Shown piece by piece: positions 53,615-55,226 of a stretch of DNA of 64,000 bases. The stretch is from assembly GCA_025463135.1 (NCBI GenBank), contig JAOAPY010000024.1, forward strand, positions 1 to 64,000, written 5' to 3'. The stretch's first letter is position 1, and every line of letters starts with the position of its first letter. The stretch comes from Acidobacteriota bacterium (lineage in GTDB: Bacteria; Acidobacteriota; Blastocatellia; Pyrinomonadales; Pyrinomonadaceae). The position numbers and the translations under genes are program-made. The notes below the pieces were generated by a model. It was given only the letters and a program-made list of their open reading frames with translations. It was not told the origin of the DNA and did not search any database.

Positions 53615-54445
53615 TTACTTTGATCTTCCAGCAAGACTCTTCTTCAAAATTTGCATCAGATCAACGACATTGCTTTCGGTGGCTTCTTCATCACTGCTCA
53701 TATGCACCACATTGCTGCGTTTCGCCTGTTTCTTCCTGGCCAGCTTTAACAACCGCTGTGTCTCTTCATCTGCCGCGGGGGTGAACGTCTTTTTAGACTT
53801 CTTCCGGATTAAGGTCTCGAATTTTTTGACTGCGGCCGGCGTTGCTTTTTTCTTTGCAGGCAGGTCGATGTCTTTGGGCGAACGCACCTCATCAGGGAAA
53901 CGCATCGTCTCGGCCCGCAGAATGCCATGGTCCGAAAAGATGGCGACCAAGTGTTCCTTGCCTCGCATCACAAAGGTGGCGATTCCCGCCTGGCCATCCT
54001 TTGTCATTGTTTCTGCCAGCAGCTTGTAGGCCTTTTCCGATCCGCCATCGGGTGTAAGAAAGTAGCCACGCTCAAAATAGAGCGGTGGTATGGAGTCTTC
54101 CTTTACAAACCTGGTCAAATCGATATCGCGAGTCTTGTCGGGCGCCAGTCGCTCCAGCTCTTCATCAGTCACGACCACATATTTTCCCTTGCCGATATCG
54201 TAGCCGCGGACCATTTCATCAGCATCGAGGTCCTTCTCTGTTTTTTCCGAATAGTATTTTCGCGACAACGGTTCGCCATCCGGTCCCAACATGCGCAAGG
54301 GCGCGCGACTGGAGCGGTTGGCGGGAAACAGGTTGACCGGCACACTGACCAGGCCGAACGTGATGGTGCCGGACCAGAAAGGACGACCACCTCGTTCCTC
54401 ACTCGCTTGCGTCGTACGATTCGGCTTTTTATGAGTCTTAGGCAG
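53615..54445 (-). CDS. ku: Ku DNA end-binding protein, second copy, apparent CTG start
   Basis: 276 residues if translated from CTG 54445. The conserved Ku N-terminus (GRPFWSGTITFGLVSVPVNL) lies just upstream of the first ATG/GTG-type start (GTG 54343), so a start there would delete the first conserved strand. No ATG, GTG or TTG occurs in frame between the ku1 stop and that point. The CTG overlaps the ku1 stop by eight bases and has AAGGAG seven bases upstream, so CTG initiation is the simplest reading. The body contains FVKEDSIPPLYFERGYFLTP and the C-terminal half is Lys-rich. Ku binds double-strand ends for non-homologous end joining. Confidence 0.78.
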   Translation of the reverse strand: MPKTHKKPNRTTQASEERGGRPFWSGTITFGLVSVPVNLFPANRSSRAPLRMLGPDGEPLSRKYYSEKTEKDLDADEMVRGYDIGKGKYVVVTDEELERLAPDKTRDIDLTRFVKEDSIPPLYFERGYFLTPDGGSEKAYKLLAETMTKDGQAGIATFVMRGKEHLVAIFSDHGILRAETMRFPDEVRSPKDIDLPAKKKATPAAVKKFETLIRKKSKKTFTPAADEETQRLLKLARKKQAKRSNVVHMSSDEEATESNVVDLMQILKKSLAGRSK

Positions 54446-55226
54446 CGCGCTTCTCCTTCCTGCCCTTTACGGCGGCAATGCTCTTGCTCAGAGCACTGTC
54501 GAGAGCCGTGGTCTTGCGCTTCGACTTCACCAGCTTTAGCCTGGGAGCGTGGCCTTTTGCTTTGCGCTCAATAAATTCCAAAACACGATCGCGATACTCA
54601 TCCTTGTAATCTTCCGGATTGAATTCATCGGCGAGCAGGCTGACCAGATGCCGTGCCATGCTGATCTCCTTTTGGCTGGGTGCTCGGCCTCCGGGCTTGG
54701 GAAGCTTAGCCGCTGAAATAACCTCGTCGGCGTTTCTCAAGGTCGCGAGAATCAAATAGCCATCCTGGGCCCGTAGCGCGCCGCTGTAGGCCTTGTTCCG
54801 CATAACCCAATCGGCAATTCCCTCCCTTTCGGTTTTGGCCAGCGCTTCGGCCAGGGCAAAGTAATTCTTTTCATCGCCGTCCGGAGCAAGATAGTAGGGA
54901 CGCTCGTAATACTGCTGGGCGATCTGGTCGGTAGGCACAAACTCTGTGACTGAAATCTCCCGCGAAGGTTCAGGCTCGATGGTCTGCAAATCTTCTTCGG
55001 TCAGGATCACGAACTTCCCCGGTTCCAGTTCGTAGGCCTTTTTGATTTCCGCCGCGGGGACTTCCTCGCCCCCATCCTGTTTCACCATGTGTTGCTTAAC
55101 CCTTTGATGACGACCATCAAGAATGTTAAAGCGCACGTTTCGATCAGTCACCGCTGAATAGAGTTTGACTGGGATCTTGTTGGTACCGATTTTGATTTGA
55201 CCTTTCCAGATCGAACGGGCTGCCAT
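54438..55226 (-). CDS. ku: Ku DNA end-binding protein, first copy
   Basis: 262 residues, with the canonical Ku start ARSIWKGQIKIGTNKIPVKL and the beta-barrel region FNILDGRHQRVKQHMVKQDG. The bridge segment QQYYERPYYLAPDGDEKNYF and the C-terminal helical region (ARHLVSLLADEFNPEDYKDE) follow. The final part is Lys/Arg-rich (KSIAAVKGRKEKRAA), a likely DNA-binding extension. ku1 and ku2 differ clearly through their length, so they are old paralogues and not a recent duplication. Bacteria with two Ku genes can use heterodimers; that is inference here. Confidence 0.92.
   Translation of the reverse strand: MAARSIWKGQIKIGTNKIPVKLYSAVTDRNVRFNILDGRHQRVKQHMVKQDGGEEVPAAEIKKAYELEPGKFVILTEEDLQTIEPEPSREISVTEFVPTDQIAQQYYERPYYLAPDGDEKNYFALAEALAKTEREGIADWVMRNKAYSGALRAQDGYLILATLRNADEVISAAKLPKPGGRAPSQKEISMARHLVSLLADEFNPEDYKDEYRDRVLEFIERKAKGHAPRLKLVKSKRKTTALDSALSKSIAAVKGRKEKRAA

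Follow-up and report, generated by a model that had tools for sequence, protein, structure and literature searches.

Two ku genes lie in tandem on the minus strand of the window, by which we mean the whole 64,000-nucleotide stretch of DNA analyzed here, and the second of them, ku2, almost certainly begins at a CTG codon (54445) placed within the end of the first, ku1 (Table 1). Based on comparison with orthologous gene pairs, we propose that fMet initiation at this CTG occurs through re-initiation by ribosomes that have just terminated on ku1, and that the codon is kept in place by the Ala-Ala end of Ku1; we consider this reading very probable. A CTG start, with coupled translation of the two genes, had been suggested by a sequence-only reading of the window, and the orthologs support the start: ten species have the CTG, three have a GTG one codon upstream, and two outgroups have an ATG at the same 8-nt overlap.

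Table 1. Coordinates of the ku gene pair and of the elements around the ku2 start
Feature	Coordinates	Strand	Description
ku1	55226..54438	minus	ATG start, 262 aa, C-terminus KEKRAA, stop TAA 54440-54438
ku2, with CTG 54445 as start	53615..54445	minus	276 aa (MPKTHKKPNRTTQASEERGGRPFWSGTITFG...), stop 53617-53615
ku1/ku2 overlap, CTGCCTAA	54438..54445	minus	8 nt
Proposed ku2 start codon, CTG	54443..54445	minus	Kept in 10 species; elsewhere GTG one codon upstream or ATG at equal overlap
Shine-Dalgarno sequence, AAGGAG	54453..54458	minus	Within ku1, 7 nt before the CTG
GTG preferred by standard start rules	54341..54343	minus	V35 of the Ku core; default ORF 242 aa

The Ku pair and its reading frames

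The ku1 product matches PF02735 (1.1e-36) and TIGR02772 (2.4e-72, model positions 1-259), and Ku2, when read from the CTG, is likewise a bacterial Ku protein that matches both models at full length and above their curated cut-offs (PF02735, 7.9e-42, 143.7 bits against a cut-off of 25; TIGR02772, 4.8e-72, 242.5 bits against 150, model positions 1-259, with the match beginning at residue 21). Ku2 is 56-72% identical to its orthologs, and an AlphaFold model of it, made with 17 sequences, has a mean pLDDT of 50. The genome under study, which is 100% complete and comprises 6.48 Mb spread over 56 contigs, carries a third ku gene elsewhere (G000:C51:59506-60270).

The frame of ku2 is open from 54466 to 53615, the upstream in-frame stop being TAA 54469-54467. 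Between that stop and GTG 54343 it contains no ATG, GTG or TTG, in agreement with the earlier statement that none occurs between the ku1 stop region and the first strand of Ku. No standard start codon thus gives the full protein, and the CTG is preceded by a Shine-Dalgarno sequence, AAGGAG, from which the spacer AAGCGCG (54452-54446, minus strand) separates it; this 7-nt spacing and the 8-nt overlap are as first read from the sequence. The 3' end of the genome's 16S rRNA has the usual anti-Shine-Dalgarno sequence CACCTCC, and its duplex with AAGGAG is computed at -9.4 kcal/mol, a strength equaled by 3% of the 17-mers within ku1.

Conservation of the start across orthologs

Orthologs of ku2 were sought among relatives, in the family (119 genomes) and class (162 genomes), and in GTDB contigs, and came from three more genera, of which two belong to the window's family and one to another family. 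The sequence CTGCCTA(A/G) is present in 10 distinct species, the window's included, from four genera and two families, and in each the genes overlap by exactly 8 nt, although these species are related and cannot be counted as phylogenetically independent cases. The junction reads GCG CTG CCT AA in five of them (L001, L016, L018, L004 and L005), GCG CTG CCT AGA in three in which ku1 stops at TAG (L020, L022 and L023), AAG CTG CCT AAA in L024, and CCG CTG CCT AGA in L039, which belongs to the different family. Three species (L017, L019 and L033) lack the CTG and carry, one codon upstream, a GTG (AGC GTG CCG), because their ku1 reads CGT GCC GCN and not CGC GCT GCC; the CGC to CGT change that creates this GTG is synonymous in ku1. 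An alignment of the orthologous ku2 genes, the check named in the sequence-only reading, shows CTG in the ten species and GTG or ATG at the equivalent place in others, and proline 2 and the Lys-rich tail of Ku2 agree with those of ATG- or GTG-started orthologs (MPRK.., MARKK.., MPKG..). From the overlap to the Ku core, the CTG is the sole conserved start-like codon; L004 and L005, both CTG species, also have a GTG just before RPFW, which could act as a start there. A frameshift or assembly error at the junction is ruled out by the identical sequence in independent genomes.

Two relatives carry lesions in these genes, an in-frame TAG in ku1 of G141 (L025:985-987) and a frameshift that splits ku2 of G122 (L033/L029), each of which is probably an assembly error or decay in a draft genome.

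Five species of one genus (L006 and L025-L028) provide a natural comparison, with ku1 and ku2 lying 33-229 nt apart. In these, ku2 starts at an ATG of its own, 22-23 codons ahead of RPFW, and retains the Lys-rich tail (MARKK...), whereas the GCT codon of ku1 that makes the CTG is missing from all five. The penultimate Ala codon of ku1 is GCT in 10 of 10 CTG species, although GCT accounts for 13% of the Ala codons that these genes use, and is GCA, GCA, GCC, GCG and GCA in the five separated species. Among the conserved fourfold-degenerate columns of ku1 and ku2, only those of the overlap hold a single codon across all ten CTG species. The Shine-Dalgarno sequence follows the same division: pairing energies range from -5.9 to -9.4 kcal/mol in the overlapping species and from -1.5 to -5.8 kcal/mol at the equivalent place in the separated ones, four of which have no such sequence there and the fifth a weak one. 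At this site, ku1 of the separated species encodes Lys-Gln, as opposed to Lys-Glu or Lys-Gly in the overlapping species.

A search of the phylum with a ku2 profile returned five further orthologous pairs, all outside the class. ATG occupies the exact position of the window's CTG in G379 (ATGCCTGA) and G369 (ATGGCTGA), each with the equal 8-nt overlap; G417 and G188 have GTG with overlaps of 11 and 14 nt, respectively, and in G223 the ku2 ATG lies just past the ku1 stop. In the tree, where the long branches of the outgroups are not securely placed, CTG is shared by the outgroup from the other family and the two main groups within the window's family; the species with GTG form one clade, and the overlap has been lost in one genus. 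Given this spread, the CTG start is probably old in the class.

Proposed mechanism and its alternatives

We propose that ribosomes stopping at the ku1 TAA would cover the AAGGAG sequence that precedes the CTG by 7 nt, and that a terminating ribosome would then re-initiate one short backward step away, the CTG being five bases before the stop, to yield a 276-residue Ku2 beginning M-P-K-. Translation of ku2 by ribosomes finishing ku1 is the most likely arrangement, and the production of Ku2 is probably tied to that of Ku1. The anatomy of the pair is consistent with such coupling: the genes overlap by 8 nt in all CTG species, with the Shine-Dalgarno sequence inside ku1, and where the genes have come apart both the overlap and a strong Shine-Dalgarno sequence are gone.

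The persistence of so weak a codon may be understood from ku1. The eight bases of the overlap double as the conserved Ala-Ala-stop end of the ku1 reading frame; as long as that end must read GCN-GCN, ku2 can have only CNG at this place, of which CTG is the sole near-AUG form, and ATG, GTG or TTG at the site would require Asp, Gly or Val in Ku1. A GTG would be reachable only one codon upstream, at 4-nt spacing from GGAG, provided that Ku1 has Arg there (CGT). The CTG thus seems to persist because the Ala-Ala end of ku1 forbids ATG, GTG and TTG at its position, and the same constraint would explain why the upstream GTG is its only replacement among overlapping members of the class. A weak CTG may be tolerated, or even used, because the terminating ribosome would deliver initiation locally. 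Within the class, every species with the pair, overlapping or separated, has Ala-Ala at the end of Ku1, and the outgroups do not. Because this end is present with or without gene overlap in the class, the amino acid sequence of Ku1 is itself constrained, and the end of the protein (54441-54446) seems to matter in its own right, perhaps as a degron-like or binding end.

Standard start rules would place the beginning of ku2 at GTG 54343, the first in-frame ATG, GTG or TTG, so that the stretch upstream would be only the ku1 end and a spacer. This GTG, however, is 34 codons past the CTG and falls within the Ku core, where GRPFWSGTITFGLVS leads directly into the V that it encodes. A start there would leave Ku2 without the first β-barrel strand, in which R21, P22, W24-T27 and T29-S34 are invariant in 17 orthologs; with 12 invariant residues before the GTG, the earlier claim that the N-terminal strand of Ku is coded upstream of the first standard start codon holds. 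The shortened protein would also lack the first 14 positions of TIGR02772 and would score 213.7 bits versus 242.5 from the CTG, alignments to solved bacterial Ku chains begin at query residue 21-23, and the V35 codon varies among orthologs (10 GTG, 3 GTC, 3 GTT, 1 GTA). A start at GTG 54343 is, on these grounds, very improbable. We hold a start at some other near-cognate codon in the N-terminal tail, between the CTG and RPFW, to be extremely unlikely as well: the window's tail does contain AAG and ACG codons, but these are poorer start codons, none of the tail's near-cognates is conserved in place, and the tail of L022 has no near-cognate other than the CTG.

Both of the remaining alternatives concern how ribosomes would reach the ku2 frame, which is +1 relative to ku1 and open across the overlap, as would be needed for +1 frameshifting at the ku1 end to give a Ku1-Ku2 fusion. 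Such a shift, however, would require P-site GCC, GCT or GCG to re-pair as CCU, CUU or CGU, the stop contexts of ku1 vary among species (UAA G, UAA C, UAG A and UGA A), and orthologs with separated genes, or with ATG at the overlap, produce two proteins; the turnover among CTG, GTG and ATG would also be left unexplained. With GCC, GCT or GCG before UAA, UAG or UGA there is no slippery site, and a programmed +1 frameshift was rejected; we find a fusion made by frameshifting scarcely credible. It is also conceivable that the CTG is the start but that 30S subunits initiate ku2 independently through the Shine-Dalgarno sequence, uncoupled from ku1 termination. A good Shine-Dalgarno sequence at 7-nt spacing favors independent initiation, which we nevertheless judge unlikely, as the start site sits within translated codons of ku1, the overlap is constant at 8 nt in all CTG species, and CTG is weak on its own.

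Under the re-initiation that we favor, use of CTG likely lowers the yield of Ku2, as reporter work quoted in PMC11983097 suggests, and the two proteins may assemble as a Ku1-Ku2 heterodimer. More tentatively, CUG could itself have been selected: being near-inactive without a ribosome terminating on ku1, it would render Ku2 strictly dependent on Ku1 and sub-stoichiometric, fixing the Ku1:Ku2 ratio for the heterodimer. Such selection is possible, though somewhat doubtful; if it were true, ATG in place of CTG would be predicted to raise Ku2 and to alter end-joining.

A relaxed initiator tRNA was considered as a cause of CTG use and dropped. The signature of the canonical initiator anticodon stem, GGGNTCATAACCC, is absent from the genome and from nearly every genome of its family (1 of 37 has it, the window's own genome being one of the 37), whereas most of the class's other families, and most of the genomes in them, have it. 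No tRNA-fMet was found among 66 tRNA hits in the window's genome, nor was an initiator tRNA found in 2.0 Mb of a relative (G092). In two relatives from other families the anticodon loop of tRNA-fMet is split, in G041 by a group I intron (RF00028, 58 bits; L148:1493-1897) and in G038 by an insert of ~1 kb (L140, complement 465-1537) that seems to be a related intron with an ORF added to it. Given these two introns, an intron appears likelier than a deviant tRNA in the window's own genome, although the gene might also be missing there. At one end of a contig (G000:C9:1400-8400, L114), more than 20 tRNA genes are densely arrayed, an unusual CAU tRNA (tgcggagtagctcaag...) among them.

Relation to known systems

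Both CTG starts and coupled overlaps are already known, and it is the depth of conservation that is unusual in ku2; no description of overlapping ku1 and ku2 genes in tandem, with ku2 starting at CTG, was found in the literature searched. As an initiator in E. coli, CTG is some 10 times below TTG (PMC11983097, citing Hecht 2017), CTG accounts for ~0.024% of annotated starts (20 in about 85,000 genes, a figure quoted in PMC11983097), and a switch to CUG has very rarely been reconstructed, for 2 of 61,358 ancestral AUG starts in closely related genomes (PMC5622118). Against this background, ku2 provides a clean comparative case, with CTG in at least 10 species of two families and natural GTG and ATG replacements as controls, and it suggests how an upstream overlapping gene, through the protein that it has to encode, can keep a start codon at CTG. 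Such proteins would be truncated by gene finders that accept only ATG, GTG and TTG, and Ku2 would lose 34 residues that include a core β-strand. Caution is warranted by the CUG of Caulobacter dnaA, which appeared start-like in a toeprint and proved unused in vivo (PMC8443254).

In cryo-EM of E. coli 70S initiation complexes, M1, a variant of the initiator tRNA, is seen paired with a P-site CUG (PMC11497404); unlike ku2, these complexes were formed in vitro, with weak first-position pairing and no natural gene. The nearest proven case is the rep gene of the FIB replicon of F-like plasmids, which, like ku2, has a natural CTG start with a Shine-Dalgarno sequence, and in which a CTG to CTC change abolished function (PMC11983097). 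That gene is usually mis-annotated at a GTG 14 codons downstream, and the rival GTG of ku2 lies 34 codons downstream. FIB rep is an experimentally proven plasmid gene, with no upstream overlap described in the part of PMC11983097 drawn on here, whereas ku2 is chromosomal and overlapping, and its start is argued from comparison only.

The arrangement of the pair also resembles that of known termination-reinitiation pairs, among which the short phase-1 overlap of 8 nt is one of the frequent classes and subunits of heteromeric complexes are enriched (PMC10666635). The downstream start in such pairs is normally ATG, GTG or TTG, in contrast to the CTG of ku2, for which coupling to ku1 is proposed from gene structure. 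Several Ku proteins per genome are known from Sinorhizobium meliloti (up to 4) and Streptomyces ambofaciens (3), as compared with three ku genes here, and heterodimers have been suggested for bacteria with several Ku proteins (PMC5124664). The ku1-ku2 pair suggests a coupled Ku of two subunits in Acidobacteriota.
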